Shown here: in pieces, positions 4,877 through 53,246 of the stretch
Layout: each line of letters begins with the position of its first letter
How positions within the stretch are numbered: the first letter of the stretch is position 1
Source: Sphingobacteriales bacterium
GTDB lineage: Bacteria; Bacteroidota; Bacteroidia; Chitinophagales; CAIOSU01
Length of the DNA stretch: 64,000 bases
Direction: 5' to 3'
Assembly (NCBI GenBank): GCA_027483645.1
Contig: JAIXUD010000009.1
Location: 614,814-678,813, forward strand
Made by a program: the position numbers and the translations under genes
The notes under the pieces: generated by a model
Database searches by the model: none
The model's input: only the letters and a program-made list of their open reading frames with translations
What the model was told of the DNA's origin: nothing

Positions 4877-5857
4877 CTAAAAAAACATCGGATGGAACTT
4901 CACCTTATCCACGGGGTTGAACTCCAGCGTGGGTGCGGGGATTTTTACAATATTGAACACGCCGAAGAGGGCGCGTAGGGCTTTGCTGCGGGTTTTGATG
5001 CGGGTGAGGTCGATGTCGAGTGAGAGGTAGAACTGCGGGTAGCGGCGCACGTCGGTACGTACTACCTGCTGGGCGGGGTCGCAGTCGCAAAACTCCACGT
5101 CGCGCTGTAGGCACCACTGGTTGCTGAAGCCGCCGTACATGCCGTTGGCGCCGTAGCCCACGGCCACGTTGAGCCACTTGGGGAAGTTGTTTTCGCGCTT
5201 GATGAACGACGATACGTTGAACGATGCCCAAGTGGTGATGGCGTTGTAATCTTTCAGCAGCACTTCGGGCGCGGTGGTGCCGTAGAGGCTGGCGGCGCGG
5301 GCCTCAAGGTCGGCGGGGTACGATGGGCGGTGCGCGGATATTTTGAGCACGATGCGCTGTTCGCCCCAGGTGAGCTCTTGCCCGATAACGAGCGCCGAGC
5401 CGAGCATGTTGGCCCCGAAATCGTAATAGCTAAAGCCCCACTTGTCGCTAAACCCGTCGAGCACCTCGATGCTGCTTTGCAGGAAGGTGCCGGTGAGGCC
5501 GCCCACCCACACGGCGGTGTGGTTTTTTACGCCCGTCCACCGGTACATGCCCATGGCCCAGCGGCTCTGGTAGTAGCTGTTGAAGATGTGGCCTGCCTTG
5601 TCCACGCCCATCCATTCGCGGCTATCATTGAAGCTGTGGAAGGTGCTGCGGGGGTAGTCTTTGTACCAATAGTAGTTGAGCCCGCCAAGGGCGAGGCCGT
5701 AGGTGCCGAGGATGCCGCCGGAAACGAGGCCTACTTTGAGGGGGTTCTTGATGGTATCGGGCTGGGTGAACCGCACACGTTGCTGGGCTTGGGCGGCGAG
5801 GGCGCTGCACCAAAGCAAAAGGGTAATGAGGATGATTTTATGGAGGGTTGTGGGCAT
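4877..5857 (-). CDS. DUF2279 family protein (predicted exported)
   Basis: The protein has about 326 residues from ATG 5857, with a signal peptide (HKIILITLLLWCSALAAQAQ). Motifs such as HSFNDSREWMGVDKAGHIF, YYQSRWAMGMYRWTG and FSDKWGFSYYDFGANMLGS fit DUF2279, a family of exported or membrane-associated proteins of unknown function in Bacteroidota. The chosen start overlaps the stop of the mini-ORF at 5857-6000 (TAATG), implying translational coupling. An upstream in-frame start at 5884 lies inside that ORF and is less likely. It faces gajB tail to tail and is much GC-richer, so it probably belongs to the host backbone. No function can be assigned. Confidence 0.75.
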   Translation of the reverse strand: MPTTLHKIILITLLLWCSALAAQAQQRVRFTQPDTIKNPLKVGLVSGGILGTYGLALGGLNYYWYKDYPRSTFHSFNDSREWMGVDKAGHIFNSYYQSRWAMGMYRWTGVKNHTAVWVGGLTGTFLQSSIEVLDGFSDKWGFSYYDFGANMLGSALVIGQELTWGEQRIVLKISAHRPSYPADLEARAASLYGTTAPEVLLKDYNAITTWASFNVSSFIKRENNFPKWLNVAVGYGANGMYGGFSNQWCLQRDVEFCDCDPAQQVVRTDVRRYPQFYLSLDIDLTRIKTRSKALRALFGVFNIVKIPAPTLEFNPVDKVKFHPMFF

Positions 5858-6000
5858 TAGGGTTTGTCTAGTTGGTCCCACCAATCGGGTGTTTCTTCTT
5901 CTTTGTCTTTTAGCTTTTCGTATACCTGCAGCAGCAAAGCATTGTCTTCAGTACTTTCTACTAAGCGGTGCAATTCCTCCTTCAGTACTTTAGTAGTCAT
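5857..6000 (-). CDS. 47-residue antitoxin-like protein (possibly truncated)
   Basis: ATG 6000 opens a 47-residue ORF beginning MTTKVLKEELHRLVES and ending DWWDQLDKP. An acidic/basic N-terminal helix and a DWWD-type motif resemble the small antitoxin or addiction-module component proteins found before RelE/ParE toxins. Those are usually about 70-80 residues long, so this may be a shortened relic. No toxin gene follows; its TAA overlaps the ATG of the DUF2279 gene. The family match is from memory of the motif and is uncertain. Confidence 0.5.
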   Translation of the reverse strand: MTTKVLKEELHRLVESTEDNALLLQVYEKLKDKEEETPDWWDQLDKP

Positions 6001-6075
6001 AATCACAATTTCAATACTAAGTTAGGTAAAAAATTCGCTTCGGGGATTGCAATTACACTAGGTGTTTCGTGACTG

Positions 6076-6250
6076 GTGTTATGTGTCCCTCACCTAGCCT
6101 CTCCCAGGGGGAGAGGGACTTTATACACCTCGTCTTTCGACTCGTTGTAAATGTTTTTTTTGAATAAAATTTAGCACAAGGTTCTTGCCGGAGGCAAGGA
6201 GGCATGGGTCCCTCTCCCTCTGGGAGAGGCTAGGTGATGGCACATAACAC
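6076..6250. repeat. Inverted repeat (6076-6119 / 6208-6250) ahead of vapBC
   Basis: The left arm runs GTGTTATGTG-CCCTCACCTAGCCTCTCCC and the right arm is its near-perfect reverse complement. Each arm is about 43 nt, with about 88 nt between them. Each arm also contains its own small palindrome (CTCTCCC with GGGAGAG). It lies in the intergenic region before vapB and codes for nothing recognisable. Confidence 0.8.
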
Positions 6251-6278
6251 TGTAAACACTCTTCCTTAAATTAATCAT

Positions 6279-6326
6279 TTTCCCCCTATCCGAACCTACA
6301 TTTCTCCGAAAGGGTTAGTACATTTA
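6279..6326 (+). repeat. Direct repeat, left copy, flanking vapBC
   Basis: A 48-nt sequence including CGAACCTACATTTCTCCG and GGGTTAGTACATTTA recurs with only a few differences at 6963-7011. The two copies bracket the vapBC module exactly. Confidence 0.85.
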
Positions 6327-6360
6327 TCAGTATGTGATTGCCAACGTTGCCTAATTTATC

Positions 6361-6368
6361 TATCTTAG
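6361..6368 (+). promoter_or_regulatory. Candidate -7 box for vapB (TATCTTAG)
   Basis: TATCTTAG differs at one position from TAnnTTTG and lies exactly 4 nt before the vapB ATG at 6373. This suggests a leaderless or nearly leaderless transcript. Confidence 0.4.
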
Positions 6369-6372
6369 GATT

Positions 6373-6561
6373 ATGAAAGTTCGTATCGAAATAGACGATA
6401 GCATTTTGAAAAAGGCTGCCAGCCTCACCGGCATTTCCGATAACCTGGAGTTAATTAACCTTGCGCTGCAAAAACTCATACAGCAGGCGCATGCCCAAGC
6501 TATGCTAGATTTGAAAGGCAAGGTGAAGTGGGAAGGGGATTTGGGTGAAATGCGTTCGTAA
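6373..6561 (+). CDS. vapB: VapB-family antitoxin
   Basis: The 62-residue protein starts MKVRIEIDDSILKKAASLTG and contains LINLALQKLIQQA, the ribbon-helix-helix-like N-terminus of the DUF2191/VapB family. The tail (KVKWEGDLGEMRS) is the part expected to wrap and inhibit the toxin. Its TAA overlaps the vapC ATG by one base, giving the usual antitoxin-first coupled pair. Such pairs autorepress through the antitoxin, so an operator probably sits near the repeat and the -7 box at 6361. Confidence 0.85.
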   Translation: MKVRIEIDDSILKKAASLTGISDNLELINLALQKLIQQAHAQAMLDLKGKVKWEGDLGEMRS

Positions 6562-6962
6562 TGGAAGGGCCTTTTTTGGTTGACACTTCTGTATGGATTG
6601 ATTTCCTAAATGGCCGGGAAAGTACCCAAGTGGTATACCTAACCAAGTATTTAAATGAAGAGGGCTTGGTTTACATCACCCCCACAATTCTTCAAGAGGT
6701 ATTGCAAGGTATTCGGGACGATAAGCAATACTTAGCGGTAAAGCAGACGCTTTTAAATTTTCTGATGCTAGATTGGCAGCCAGTAGAAGCGGCAATAGCC
6801 GCAGCGGATTTGTATCGGAAGCTTAGAAAAAGCGGTGTTACCATAAAAAAAGCCAATGATTGTTTGATAGCAGCTTATGCACTACAATTTAATGTGGCTT
6901 TATTGTGCTCCGATGCGGATTTCAACCTCATCGCTTCTAAAAGCGAGTTAAAAGTAATATAA
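6561..6962 (+). CDS. vapC: VapC-family PIN-domain ribonuclease toxin
   Basis: The 133-residue protein is a single PIN domain. Acidic metal-binding residues are visible in FLVDTSVWIDFL (Asp near residue 8), PTILQEVLQGI (Glu), KKANDCLIAAYA (Asp) and LLCSDADFNLIA (Asp). VapC toxins cleave RNA, often tRNA, when freed from VapB. The gene is intact, with all four acidic sites present. Just after its stop a repeat copy begins that matches the sequence before vapB. Confidence 0.9.
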   Translation: MEGPFLVDTSVWIDFLNGRESTQVVYLTKYLNEEGLVYITPTILQEVLQGIRDDKQYLAVKQTLLNFLMLDWQPVEAAIAAADLYRKLRKSGVTIKKANDCLIAAYALQFNVALLCSDADFNLIASKSELKVI

Positions 6963-7011
6963 TTTCCCCCCATCCTGAACCTACATTTCTCCGCAAGGGT
7001 TAGTACATTTA
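6963..7011 (+). repeat. Direct repeat, right copy, flanking vapBC
   Basis: This copy matches 6279-6326 with one extra base and about four other changes. It starts right after the vapC stop and lies just upstream of the gene at 7029, so it may carry that gene's original promoter. Confidence 0.85.
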
Positions 7012-7028
7012 CTATAAACCAACTGACC

Positions 7029-7331
7029 ATGCCAAACTATGATACCGTAGTGGATGCCCTGCACGACCTAAAGGCCCGGGGCTTTGATTTCGACTTCAAC
7101 CTAAAAGAAACCTGCCTGCACTGTGCACAGCTTGATAAGGAGCTGAGCCCGGAGGATTTTGATGTGGTGGAAATATACCGCTTTGAAGGTGCCAGCAACC
7201 CCGATGACAACAGCATAGTGTATGCCATAGAAAGTACGGATGGGCTGAAAGGGACGCTGGTAAATGCTTACGGCATCTACTCTGACCCGGTGAGCGATGA
7301 ATTGGTGGCTAAACTCGATATAAAGCGCTAA
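7029..7331 (+). CDS. Conserved 100-residue hypothetical protein (small acidic, Bacteroidota family)
   Basis: The acidic protein includes LHDLKARGFDFDFNL, CLHCAQL, DVVEIYRFEGASNPDD and LVNAYGIYSDPVSDEL. Homologues in Bacteroidota are often labelled 'phosphoribosylpyrophosphate synthetase', but it is far too short and lacks PRPP synthase motifs, so that name should not be copied. It has no signal peptide or membrane segment. Its TAA overlaps the ATG of the kinase at 7331, so the two are co-translated and may work together. The function is unknown. Confidence 0.8.
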   Translation: MPNYDTVVDALHDLKARGFDFDFNLKETCLHCAQLDKELSPEDFDVVEIYRFEGASNPDDNSIVYAIESTDGLKGTLVNAYGIYSDPVSDELVAKLDIKR

Positions 7332-8731
7332 TGGAAACTAAGATTACCAAAGACCACCTGCGGGCTTTCGAAACGTTTGCCGATGTGCCCGATGAAGACC
7401 TACAATGGCTGGTGTGCAACAGCCGCTACTACACCATTATGAAAGATGGCTACCTGTTTAAAGAGGGCGACGCTACTAATGAGATGCACATAGTGCTCTC
7501 TGGCAAGCTGCTGCTGTACTTTAACCAAAACGGCCAGCGCCGCGTGGCGGGCGAATTGGAGCCTGGTGAGGTAACAGGGGTGCTGCCCTACAGCCGCATG
7601 GTGAAGGCAGGCGGCAATGGGTTGGCGCTGGAGCATACGGATATGCTCTCGTTGCACCGCGACAGTTTCCTGGAAATGATACAGCAGCGCCACGCCCTTA
7701 CGCAAAAGCTGGTAACGCTGATGACTAGCCGGGTGCGGGATTTTACGAAAATGCAATCGCAAAACGAAAAGATGATTTCGCTGGGCAAGCTCTCGGCAGG
7801 GCTAGCACACGAGCTTAACAACCCTGCAGCGGCCGTGGTGCGCAGTGCCAGCGAGCTGAAGAAGCACTTGGGTAACGTGCCCGATAAGTTTAAGCGGGTA
7901 ATGCTGATAAAGGTAACCCCCGAGGTGGTGGACTGCGTAAATGACATACTATTTGCCAAGCTGCAAGGTAAAAATGCCCTGAAGCTGAGTATGCTGGAGC
8001 GCAGCGAGAAGGAAGACGATATGACCTATTGGATGGAGGACCACAACATTGATAACGGTGCCGACCTTGCGGAGAACTTTGCGGATTTTGGCTTTGAGCT
8101 GGAGGACTTGGATGTGCTGCTCGAACATGTGGGCGAGCAAGATATCGCCTCTGTGTTGGGCTGGATGGATAGTGTAATGGCTACCGAAAAGCTGGTGGGC
8201 GAAATTGAGGAGGCTAGTAAACGAATATCGGCGTTGGTGAATTCGGTGAAAAGCTACAGCCATATGGACCGCGCCAACGATACCGAGGCGGTGGACATAC
8301 ACGATGGCATACGCAGCACTATTACGCTGCTCAACCATAAGATTAAAAAGAACGGCGTAAAGGTGATTGAGACGTTTGATAGCTCGCTGCCGAAGGTGCC
8401 GATATTTGTGAGCGAGATGAACCAGGTATATACCAACCTGATTGACAACGCTGTAGATGCTATGGAGGGCCGCGAAGGGAATACGCTAGAGATAGCCACC
8501 AAACAGGAGCGCGAATCGGTGGTAATCAGCATTATTGATAACGGCCCCGGTATAGCAGACGACGTGGTAGACCAAATATTCGACCCATTCTTTACTACCA
8601 AAGCCGTGGGCAAAGGCAGTGGCCTGGGGTTGGAGGTGGTGCGCAACATTGTGGAGCAGCATAAAGGCACCATAACGGTTCACAGTAAGCCGGGCAGGAC
8701 GGAGTTTCGGGTGTGTTTGCCGTTGGCTTAG
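7331..8731 (+). CDS. Soluble sensor histidine kinase with N-terminal cyclic-nucleotide-binding domain
   Basis: The 466-residue protein has no membrane segment. Residues about 10-130 form a Crp-type cNMP-binding domain ([21 protein letters not shown] and following). The phospho-acceptor motif is [17 protein letters not shown] (His about 160). The C-terminal ATPase shows [10 protein letters not shown] (N box), [11 protein letters not shown] (G1), FDPFFTTK (F box) and GSGLGLEVV (G2). It should autophosphorylate in the cytoplasm in response to a ligand or redox cue read by the cNMP domain. No response regulator is adjacent. It is coupled to the small gene at 7029. The kinase call is certain and the ligand unknown. 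Confidence 0.93.
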
Positions 8732-8898
8732 ACACAAGATATAAGACACAAGACACAAGACACAAGACATAAGACTTGCTTCAATTTGCTTCCGTGTGTT
8801 TCCGTGTGCTCCGTGGTTGTAACACAAACCACGGTACTTCAAGTTTAGAGCCTATTGCAAAGAGACCCCTCCGAAAAGGTCGGGGTGACAATACCGAC
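8732..8898. repeat. Intergenic low-complexity tract with ACACAAGACACAAG-type repeats
   Basis: Four or five short ACACAAG/ATAAG units follow the kinase stop (8732-8775), then TTCCGTGTG and CCACGG fragments. The same CCACGGA...ACACGGAAA wording occurs at about 48512 and 51077. No gene is seen here. A weak hairpin (GACCCCTCCGAAAAGGTCGGGGT, 8863-8885) may end transcription. Confidence 0.6.
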
Positions 8899-10509
8899 TT
8901 AAGCAACCATCCCTTCCGCCATGCGCCGCTCTAGCGGGTGGTTTATGTTGCCGGGTTTTTCGGGTACTTGTGCCATCGCGTATTCGCTAAGGGCAGTGAT
9001 GCTTAGGCTGGGGTTTACGCCTAGGTTGCAGGGGATGATGGAGCCATCGAGGATGTACATGTTCGGGTAGCCGTGTACTTCAAAGCGCTCGTTTACCACG
9101 CCTTTATCGGTGGTTTCGCCCATGGGGCAGCCGCCTAGTATGTGGGCCGTGGTGCTCATATTGAACATTACTTCTGTTACCGCATTCATCGGCACGCCGC
9201 CCGTTTTGGCAGCATAGCGGTTCATTACCTCCTGCCCGATGGGTATGTAGGCGGGTACTTTTGCCTGCCCGCTGTTATCAATGGCCATACTCCCCCCGCC
9301 AAACCAACTGCGTTTCCATACCATTTTCATGGAGTTATCCAGCGTTTGCATTACGAGGAATATAATGGAGGTGCGGGGCAAGTTGCGGGTAAATAGGAGC
9401 TTCATCATGGCGCCAGGCTTGGTAAGGATATTGCCAATCATTTTGGCTGTGCGGATGATGGGCCGCCCCTCGCCGGTGGCTAGGGTACTGAGCCGTACCA
9501 TAGCATCGGAGCCGTCAGGGAATTTTACAATTTCCACATGCGTATGGTCGTCCGGATTGAATACCGAACTGATGGCCACGCCGTGGTTGAGGGTTTGGTT
9601 GCCGCCAACTACCCCGCACAGCGATTCGCTGTTGGTACGCAGGTTCTCGCCGAGGGTATTGCTCAGGTTGGGCAGGGTTTTGTAGTGGTACTTTTGTTTT
9701 AACAGCAAGTCCATAGTGCCCAGTACACCGCCGCTTACAACTAGTCCTTTGGCTTTATAAACCTGTACTTTCTTCCGAAACCACGAGGTACTGCTCTGGG
9801 TATGCACATGGTAGATGCCGTCGATGTGTTCAATGCGGGTTACCAGCGTTTCGGCTACTATCTCGGCGCCATATTGCTGGGCGAAGTAGAGGTAGTTTTT
9901 ATCGAGTGTATTCTTGGCACCGTGCCTGCAGCCCACCATACAGCCCGCACACTCCACACAGCCCGTGCGCTTGGGGCCCAGGCCGTTGAAGTATGGGTCG
10001 GTAGCGTTCTTGGTATCACCGAAATAAACACCCACGTCTACTGGGGTATAGCTGCTCTCGCGGCCCATTTCGGTAGCGACGTCTTTAAGCAACTTGTCTT
10101 CAGGATATTCTTTAGCTACTTTGGTGCTGCCGAGCATAAACTGCGCCTTGCGGTAGTAAGGCATCAGTGTGGTCTTCCAATCCTTGATATGCGCCCATGC
10201 GGGGTTGCCGAAGAACGCATCCGGCGGCACAAACAGGGTGTTGGCATATACTAGGCTTCCACCGCCCACTCCTACCCCACTCAGTATAAACACATCTTTA
10301 AAAAAGGTCAGTTTTTGAAAGCCGAACCACTTCAGTGCTGGCGCCCATAGGTATTTAGGGGCGTTCCAATTGGTTTTAGGGAAGTCTTTGGCGGCGTAGT
10401 GCTTGCCTTTTTCCAATACGGTTACGTTGTAGCCCTTCTCCGCCAAGCGCATGGCCGAAACGCTTCCCCCGAAACCGGAACCGATGATGATGTAGTCTTT
10501 TAGTATCAA
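8899..10509 (-). CDS. GMC-family oxidoreductase (FAD-dependent)
   Basis: The protein has about 536 residues. An N-terminal FAD Rossmann motif reads DYIIIGSGFGGSVSAMRLAEKG, followed by VLEKGKHY, GVGVGGGSLVYANTLF and a cysteine-rich CVECAGCMVGCRHGAK stretch. The C-terminus has the GMC signature around HILGGCPMG and NMYILDGSIIPCNLGVNPS. It resembles cholesterol-oxidase-like GMC enzymes, but the substrate is unknown. I chose TTG 10509 because DYIIIGSG normally lies within a few residues of the start. The in-frame extension to 10554 is made of repeats such as TATCAAG and looks non-coding. It appears to be monocistronic. Confidence 0.87.
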   Translation of the reverse strand: MILKDYIIIGSGFGGSVSAMRLAEKGYNVTVLEKGKHYAAKDFPKTNWNAPKYLWAPALKWFGFQKLTFFKDVFILSGVGVGGGSLVYANTLFVPPDAFFGNPAWAHIKDWKTTLMPYYRKAQFMLGSTKVAKEYPEDKLLKDVATEMGRESSYTPVDVGVYFGDTKNATDPYFNGLGPKRTGCVECAGCMVGCRHGAKNTLDKNYLYFAQQYGAEIVAETLVTRIEHIDGIYHVHTQSSTSWFRKKVQVYKAKGLVVSGGVLGTMDLLLKQKYHYKTLPNLSNTLGENLRTNSESLCGVVGGNQTLNHGVAISSVFNPDDHTHVEIVKFPDGSDAMVRLSTLATGEGRPIIRTAKMIGNILTKPGAMMKLLFTRNLPRTSIIFLVMQTLDNSMKMVWKRSWFGGGSMAIDNSGQAKVPAYIPIGQEVMNRYAAKTGGVPMNAVTEVMFNMSTTAHILGGCPMGETTDKGVVNERFEVHGYPNMYILDGSIIPCNLGVNPSLSITALSEYAMAQVPEKPGNINHPLERRMAEGMVA

Positions 10510-13611: not shown

Positions 13612-14007
13612 ATGGTAGTAAAAGGGTCGCTTGGGAAAGAAGGTTACTATTTCCTGCTAGATACTGGCAAACGCACCATATTTGTGGATGAGCCAATAGA
13701 GAAAGGCGGCACTGATTTAGCGCCAAACCCATTGGAACTAATGCTCACCTCTCTGGCATCGTGCACCTGCGTTACGGTACAGATGTATGCCAAAACCAAA
13801 GGTTACCCGCTGGAGAAAATAGACGTGAAAGTAAACGGAACCATAGAAGCAGGTACTGGAAAACTGCTTGCCAACTGTGAGGTAACCCTCCACGGCCCAT
13901 TGGATGAACCCCAGCGAAAGCGGCTACTGGGTATCGCCAACCGCTGCCCGGTCCACCGCATCCTCAGCCCTCAGAATGATATTATGACGAGGTTGATGGC
14001 TTACTAA
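13612..14007 (+). CDS. OsmC/Ohr-family peroxiredoxin-like protein
   Basis: The 131-residue protein has the two cysteines of the OsmC fold in LTSLASCTCVTVQMYA (with an extra Cys two residues on) and IANRCPVHRIL. The motif GGTDLAPNPLELMLTSLASC is classic. OsmC/Ohr proteins reduce organic hydroperoxides through this Cys pair; some members in this subgroup have other thiol roles. It follows the nitroreductase by 2 nt, so the pair is one operon. Confidence 0.92.
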   Translation: MVVKGSLGKEGYYFLLDTGKRTIFVDEPIEKGGTDLAPNPLELMLTSLASCTCVTVQMYAKTKGYPLEKIDVKVNGTIEAGTGKLLANCEVTLHGPLDEPQRKRLLGIANRCPVHRILSPQNDIMTRLMAY

Positions 14008-14008
14008 T

Positions 14009-14061
14009 GTACCGAGGGCGAAAAGGCCCTCGGCTATCATTCTGATGCCCTTTCAGGGCGA
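14009..14061 (+). repeat. REP-like two-hairpin element, copy A
   Basis: Hairpin 1 (14012-14033) is CCGAGGGC-GAAAAG-GCCCTCGG and hairpin 2 (14047-14059) is GCCCTTTCAGGGC, joined by TATCATTCTGAT. It is the same architecture as the repeats around the transposase at 52525, but with different stem bases that still pair. The remaining 100 nt to the next gene hold nothing recognisable. Confidence 0.85.
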
Positions 14062-14164
14062 CCTGTATTATTGATTTCCCTATAGGGTCTTGTACCAATA
14101 GCATAGTGGTGTAGCAAAATCTGAGGCAGATTTTATAAATTTACCTTACACCTACCTTCTTCAT

Positions 14165-23134: not shown

Positions 23135-23525
23135 CAATAGCGGTTTTAGTCAATTGTAAAATTAAGGAAAACTTTTGGGTAATGGCATTTGCTGGCCTTG
23201 TATTGCAAATAAAGCTTAGCTGTGGCTACCTTATAAGACGGCTGAAATAGGCGAATATTGTATAGATTTAAAATGATTTTTTATTGGGCCGCTATTACAA
23301 CGTATTTCCTAAAACTCATTACTTCCCGAGGGCGAAAAGGCCCTCGACTGTTATTCTTATGCTCATTTGGGGCAATGTCATTAAATTAAGAATCTGTTAC
23401 TGCACATTACCAGAAACTCATTACGTCCCTAGGGCGGAAAGGCCCTAGGCTAACATTCTTATGCCCTTTCAGGGCGTACCATAATACGGGGCTATTGCAA
23501 TATAACATAAGGCTCCCGCCCTGTG
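23135..23525. repeat. Intergenic region with REP-like copies B (23317-23374) and C (23418-23478)
   Basis: Copy B has hairpin CGAGGGC-GAAAAG-GCCCTCG (23327-23346) and a decayed second hairpin. Copy C has CCTAGGGC-GGAAAG-GCCCTAGG (23428-23449) and an intact second hairpin, GCCCTTTCAGGGC (23463-23475). Both are preceded by CTCATTACNTCC, as in the copies around the transposase at 52525. No gene is seen. Confidence 0.85.
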
Positions 23526-52207: not shown

Positions 52208-52506
52208 TTCATTACGTCCGATGGGCTAAATGGCCCATCGCTAGCATTCTGATGCCCCTTCAGGGCGATGGTGCGAATATGTTTACTTTCCGATGGGCGG
52301 AAAAGCCCATCGCTAGCATTCGCCCGTTAAGACGATGGTTTTATTATGTTACGCCCTGAAGGGGCATAAGAATGATAGCGTCGGGCTTTTCCGCCCGACG
52401 TACGCAATGCGTTTCAATTTTAAATGCTCCAGTAAGCAAAAATCCCTTATCATATTCGATGGGCAAAAAGGCCCATCGCTAGCATTCTTGTGCCCCTTCA
52501 GGGCGT
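52208..52506. repeat. REP-like cluster, 3' side of the transposase (copies D, E, F, G)
   Basis: Four two-hairpin elements lie at 52208-52267 (D, plus), 52283-52335 (E, plus, second hairpin broken), 52350-52404 (F, minus) and 52449-52506 (G, plus). Hairpin 1 is CGATGGGC...GCCCATCG in D, E and G, and CGTCGGGC...GCCCGACG in F. Hairpin 2 is GCCCCTTCAGGGC. A conserved linker, CTAGCATTCTGAT, joins the two. Confidence 0.9.
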
Positions 52507-52524
52507 GAGTGAATAATATAGGCT

Positions 52525-52977
52525 TCAGTCCCAAACATAACGTTCATCGTATGCTACTTTGTGCTCTTTGAAAAACACTCGGCATTCGTCTTGAAAAGAT
52601 TGTGTTTTATGATGTTCGTGTTGATTAGCGATATAGTTACAAACGGCAGGGATTTTAGAGGTGCTAACCGAAAATGCCGCATAACCATCTTGCCAATAGA
52701 AGCCCTTATATGGTTCACCTTGCTTTTTCATCCATAAGCTGGATTGTCCTTTCACTTCCTCCAACAACTTCATTACCGCTATCCTACGCGATAAACCGCA
52801 TAGTATATGCACGTGGTCGTAATATCCACCCACTTTAATTGGGTAGCAATCCAACCCATTGCAAATGCCACCTAAATATTCATGAAGCCTGGGTTCAATC
52901 TCTAAGTCTATAGTTGGTTGCCGAAGCTTTGTACTGAAAATGAGGTGCAAATATATCTGCGAAAGTGATTGTGGCAT
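52525..52977 (-). CDS. IS200-like Y1 (HUH) transposase, REP-associated (RAYT-like)
   Basis: The 150-residue single-domain Y1 protein has QIYLHLIFSTKLRQPTI at the N-terminus, the HUH pair HVH (residues 55-57) in GGYYDHVHILCGL, the catalytic Tyr 115 with Gln 119 in NYIANQHEHH, and ends in ERYVWD. It should nick and join single-stranded DNA at folded palindromes. No tnpB follows. Palindromic elements crowd both sides (52208-52506 and 53048-53246), as for RAYT-REP systems. The ORF is intact, so activity is possible. Confidence 0.92.
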   Translation of the reverse strand: MPQSLSQIYLHLIFSTKLRQPTIDLEIEPRLHEYLGGICNGLDCYPIKVGGYYDHVHILCGLSRRIAVMKLLEEVKGQSSLWMKKQGEPYKGFYWQDGYAAFSVSTSKIPAVCNYIANQHEHHKTQSFQDECRVFFKEHKVAYDERYVWD

Positions 52978-53047
52978 ATATGCATATTTGCCTACAAATA
53001 AGCTTTTAACTCTTTAAAATTCCAAATTGCTGTCACCATTTTTGTTT

Positions 53048-53246
53048 CGCCCCGAAGGGGCATAATAATGATAGCGTCGGGCTTTTCCGCCCGACGTACA
53101 TATTGTATTATAAGGTTAGGATTAGAAAAGCCTGTATTATGTCCGATGGGCGAAAAAGCCCATCGCTAGCATTCTGGTGCCCTTGCAGGGCGGCGTTGCA
53201 AATATCTTTGCATTACGATGGCATTTCAGCCCGACGTAAGTAATGC
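53048..53246. repeat. REP-like cluster, 5' side of the transposase (copies H, I, J)
   Basis: H (53048-53100) is inverted, with stem CGTCGGGC...GCCCGACG at 53075-53096. I (53136-53192) is direct, with stem CGATGGGC...GCCCATCG at 53144-53165. J (53208-53246) is a degraded part-copy. H faces G across the transposase gene, giving an inverted frame. Confidence 0.88.

Follow-up and report, generated by a model that had tools for sequence, protein, structure and literature searches.

The window considered here, a stretch of 64,000 nucleotides from a 4.27-Mb Sphingobacteriales genome (G000), contains at positions 6274–7011 a plain vapBC pair flanked on both sides by a 53-nt direct repeat. The left copy of the repeat (L, 6274–6326, + strand) is a promoter-like element before vapB; the right copy (R, 6959–7011, + strand) is the same element before a gene that begins at 7029. 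The cores of the two copies span 35 nt each (6292–6326 and 6977–7011), and that of L comprises two short arms, GAACC (6292–6296) and GGTTA (6313–6317), and a TAnnTTTA box (6319–6326). The antitoxin gene vapB (6373–6561, + strand, 62 aa) has its start codon 46 nt past the end of L and is followed by the toxin gene vapC (6561–6962, + strand, 133 aa). R starts at the vapC stop codon, and 17 nt separate its end from the start codon at 7029 of a gene for a 100-aa protein (7029–7331, + strand) that has no Pfam, NCBIfam or PDB match. The next gene (7331–8731, + strand) has the domain matches of a cyclic-nucleotide-binding histidine kinase, and its start codon overlaps the stop codon of the 100-aa gene. 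The vapBC pair is arranged head-to-tail upstream of this 7029 operon with neither a gene nor an obvious terminator between them.

On the left, a gene for a DUF2279 protein (4877–5884, − strand, domain match) serves as the common anchor of the locus, which was compared with four further genomes of the same genus, designated G001 to G004. Beside it lies the 49-aa antitoxin remnant of a ParE-type pair (5857–6006, − strand). This pair adjoins the locus intact in relatives; in G000 the toxin gene is absent and the antitoxin remnant is all that is kept. For the ParE-type pair (loci L083, L084 and L085), identity between the G002 and G003 alleles is only about 40%, against 93–99.7% for the genes beside them, suggesting an exchange of alleles. 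Between the remnant and L, and ending 33 nt left of L, is a REP/MITE-like inverted repeat (6087–6240) with 33-nt arms (6087–6119 and 6208–6240) that are 94% identical. Elsewhere in the window, at 14004–14089, 23326–23505 and 52208–53221, short REP-like palindromes form families with several members each.

Judged by sequence, the vapBC pair is an ordinary type II toxin-antitoxin module. VapC scores well above the cut-offs for PF01850 (55.9 bits against 23.6) and NF047959 (142 bits against 80) and is similar to VapC11 and VapC15. When it is aligned to M. tuberculosis VapC11 (6a7v), the four conserved acidic PIN residues (D, E, D, D) are kept. VapB matches PF09957 (43.6 bits, cut-off 23.4) and is encoded directly upstream of vapC, the vapB stop and vapC start overlapping by one base at 6561. 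Matches to vapC were found in five of the 99 genomes searched, G000 included, and besides G000 only G004 exceeded 40% identity. Across the class, eight of 396 genomes (again including G000) passed an E-value of 1e-18, and the others were 37–54% identical. No relative of the pair was present in viral contigs and the best plasmid match, from Spartinivicinus, had 43% identity. As a result, a phage or plasmid origin was rejected.

A repeat search of the window aligned L and R over 53 nt at an offset of 685 with 87% ungapped identity; the left part aligns at an offset of 684 after a 1-nt shift, and the cores are identical at 34 of 35 positions. The original prediction, made from the DNA letters, of direct repeats of about 48 nt bracketing vapBC is therefore borne out at a slightly greater length, as is its description of a 684-nt unit consisting of the toxin-antitoxin pair alone, since vapB and vapC are the only open reading frames listed between the copies. 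A core pattern allowing up to three mismatches matched L and R only in the 64 kb, with no match expected from 100 shuffles. A BLAST search of the whole genome for further copies likewise returned L and R; no third copy was present in the 4.27 Mb, and the three other matches were chance 14–17-mers. The repeat contains no stable hairpin and its folding does not go beyond that of shuffled sequences. An RNA element was considered and set aside, there being no Rfam match near the cut-off.

Loci encoding PIN domains were also surveyed in seven genomes. Of 26 loci, three (L114, L115 and L125) were left out because their flanks overlap at a contig end, and among the remaining 23 a repeat score of at least 16 was reached only by the G000 locus (L116), the G004 locus (L117) and L120 in G005. 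Two more, L112 (14.0 against 13.5) and L113 (15.0 against 13.5), came out slightly above their 100 shuffled controls, in each case on a single strand. PIN-domain loci are not generally bracketed by repeats in these 23 loci. L120 (G005:C33), a PIN-toxin locus of another genus, is flanked by a long direct repeat that is probably duplicated coding DNA.

To find relatives of the locus, 99 genomes were searched at the DNA level and with the protein encoded at 7029, which has homologues in 39 of the 99, G000 included. The element itself is carried by five genomes only, of which G004 is 78% complete and G001 is in 530 contigs. Three of the five species of the genus (G001, G002 and G003) have one copy of the core before the 7029 homologue and no vapBC; the empty site that had been proposed as a check thus exists, and its single copy stands where R stands, in agreement with the earlier placement of R at the promoter of the 7029 gene. 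G004 also carries vapBC at this position, and its two copies of the core lie upstream of vapB and in the gap that separates vapC from 7029. An rpoB tree, which lacks G001 because only a fragment of its rpoB is available, places G000 outside G004, G002 and G003 (support 90/90); the G001 kinase shares 92–93% identity with its G002 and G003 counterparts. Since the two vapBC carriers are not grouped together, their distribution calls for a single old gain with one loss, or for two gains.

The empty sites are not untouched. G004 has an intact permease gene of which G001, G002 and G003 retain a shrunken remnant beside the single copy: its start is recognizable to the left of the element (0 of 1000 shuffles in each genome) and its end is matched more weakly. 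A remnant of the end of vapC was not supported in these genomes (rank fractions 0.15, 0.28 and 0.54), and vapBC may have been lost together with the permease deletion or may never have been present. The locus is unstable. In G001 to G004 the kinase is followed by a response regulator-thioredoxin reductase fusion; in G000 the 84% identical counterpart lies on another contig (L145, G000:C7:78000-94000) without a kinase, so that the kinase in the window stands by itself; the corresponding place in the window is 8731–8899. The 100-aa protein of G000 is 58–63% identical to its homologues in the genus, which are 90–96% identical among themselves; this suggests fast change or replacement in G000.

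To avoid circularity, the conserved framework of the element was defined from the genomes that lack vapBC, as the 30 positions that are invariant in G001, G002 and G003 alone. The two best sites for this framework in the window are R (24/30) and L (23/30), the next best site scoring 19; in the G004 locus, R and L score 27/30 and 24/30 and the next best site 17. Of the 23 positions that are invariant in all five R copies, L keeps 22 in G000 and 21 in G004. As a plain direct repeat, the G004 pair, with a score of 16, exceeds the shuffle maxima of 13–13.5 in one test but not the maximum of 18 in another, and the case for this pair rests on the framework. Silent divergence between G000 and G004 has reached or nearly reached saturation (pS of 0.86 for vapC, 0.72 for the kinase and 0.63 for vapB), and the leader sequences joining L to vapB can no longer be aligned (974 of 1000 shuffles equally good). 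The framework has persisted at L and at R as similarity was lost around it, which speaks for a function of each copy.

The framework is also specific to the locus. In the five genomes of the genus, the pattern GAACC-N15..18-GTTANTANNTTTR matched the locus 2, 2, 1, 1 and 1 times, with one stray match elsewhere in G002 and none for the reversed control. A related pattern run against a collection of 84,980 species genomes, which may omit that of the window, matched four stretches only, whose contigs agree in length with those of G001 to G004, and the repeat core was absent from viral contigs. A looser pattern, GAACC-N6..22-GGTTAGTA, yielded one additional orthologous pair with the same 16-nt spacing in G001 and G002 and a few others with other spacing; about as many matches came from the reversed control, so these were treated as chance and a wider regulon was not adopted. 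The original prediction had named as evidence against itself a promoter element found widely at unrelated genes, and none emerged from the genome BLAST, the five-genome pattern search or the 84,980-genome scan.

From these data, the repeat is probably a locus-specific promoter/operator that was duplicated before vapBC, so that vapBC and the kinase operon would share a regulator, with recent homogenization of the two copies in G000. Since the element is also retained before 7029 where vapBC is missing, it would have belonged first to the operon of the 100-aa protein and the cyclic-nucleotide-binding histidine kinase, a second copy having been placed before vapBC. The framework would then represent a putative binding site together with a −7 box. 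The GAACC and GGTTA arms, separated by 16 nt, resemble an operator, and the TAnnTTTA box is present in all seven copies of the element. The Bacteroidota primary-sigma promoter is summarized in PMC6847099 as a −33 TTTG and a −7 TAnnTTTG. In the window, TAnnTTTG occurs upstream of 14 of 50 open reading frames compared to 2.4 in shuffles, showing that genes in this genome do use such a −7 box. Against the promoter reading, the box of the element ends in A instead of G, a −33 TTTG is not evident, and the element is carried by five genomes only. The vapBC pair and the kinase operon may answer to the same regulator and would probably be switched on together. As the repeat holds no stable hairpin, transcripts starting at L may run on through vapBC into the kinase operon.

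The likeness of L and R in G000 needs separate consideration. At the 15 core positions that are free of the framework, the two copies agree at 14 in G000 and at 5 in G004, and other comparisons of an L with an R give 3–5. The stretch before the core behaves similarly, with 12 of 18 positions matching (ungapped) between L and R of G000 and 3–8 between a G000 copy and a copy from another genome. Given how far silent sites have diverged between the species, L and R must have become alike after G000 and G004 parted, and their similarity points to recent recombination between the copies (gene conversion or exchange) or to a fresh re-duplication. An alternative is that both copies are old and that selection on the shared operator alone has kept them alike. 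The framework is indeed conserved at L and R in both G000 and G004; however, the free positions agree between L and R in G000 only, and VapB has changed little (dN 0.08), which does not suggest a new operator specificity. We regard this alternative as unlikely.

It is also conceivable that VapB or the VapBC complex binds both copies, repressing or releasing the kinase operon together with its own, while recombination keeps the operators matched and can occasionally delete the module cleanly. The element stands before 7029 in genomes without vapBC, so this VapBC cannot be its sole reader, and we give this reading rather little credence.

The same low probability is assigned to a mobile vapBC cassette, in which the repeat would be a recombination site and a circle of one repeat and vapBC would enter and leave at the lone repeat upstream of 7029. 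A mobile element would be expected to have direct repeats at its two ends and a one-copy empty site, as is the case here, and within one genus two copies accompany vapBC and one its absence. The G000 copies are nearly identical, and by inspection R consists of an L-like left half and a native right flank. Against this, the unit encodes vapB and vapC but no recombinase or transposase, the repeat is found nowhere else in the genome nor outside the genus locus in the 84,980 genomes, and it accompanies none of seven vapC relatives from other families of the class. The divergence of vapBC between G000 and G004 equals that of its neighbours, so no recent transfer between the two took place. An integron cassette was rejected since there are two copies only, and no attC-type hairpin was found by folding beyond shuffles.

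In G004, the left flank of the R copy, directly after the vapC stop, is related to the G003 flank (3 of 1000 shuffles as good) and more weakly to that of G001 (96 of 1000). A native-like flank at this position speaks against a duplicated target site; had integration occurred at the repeat, the flank and R would have been parted. Insertion by duplication, as originally proposed, is further opposed by the G004 copies sharing only the conserved framework (5 of 15 free positions). The possibility that a transposase duplicated its target site was dismissed on the same flank, the lack of a transposase and the length of 48–53 nt; usual target-site duplications are far shorter. As to the companion proposal of excision between the repeats, the likeness of L and R in G000 gives some support for recombination, but no excised form was observed, the single-copy flank in G003 matches the R flank of G004, and G001 to G003 also carry the permease remnant beside it. 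Excision or mobility of vapBC through the repeats is possible. Lastly, a chance or generic intergenic repeat (REP or MITE) is scarcely credible: such repeats do occur in the window, one ending close to L, but the presence of no more than two copies, kept by several species at a single locus, together with the genome-wide count and the framework scores, refutes it.

Taken as a promoter/operator copied from its neighbour, the repeat indicates that a toxin-antitoxin pair appears to have adopted the regulatory element of an adjacent signalling operon and kept it over a long evolutionary time. The locus offers a small and concrete system for studying how chromosomal toxin-antitoxin modules become wired into host regulation, and for asking whether recombination keeps short promoter repeats matched. 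Among the open-licence PMC articles returned by literature searches, none had a title or displayed abstract describing a vapBC pair bracketed by copies of a neighbour's promoter.

In gene order, protein sizes, the one-base overlap and the four acidic residues shared with VapC11, the pair follows other type II VapBC modules; it differs in its upstream element, which is common to the kinase operon and apparently derived from it. Compared to the Bacteroidota primary-sigma promoter as summarized in PMC6847099, the element has its TAnnTTTA at a fitting distance from both vapB and 7029, but the box ends in A, the −33 TTTG is lacking and there is an extra GAACC..CATT..TC..GGTTA framework that is found at no other genes. 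SavRS of Staphylococcus aureus, whose toxin-antitoxin complex also controls other promoters according to the outline in PMC5913840, provides a model for operators shared between a module and further genes. The SavRS targets in that outline are distant virulence genes, whereas the second copy in the window lies before the adjacent operon and the element is kept in genomes without the toxin-antitoxin pair.
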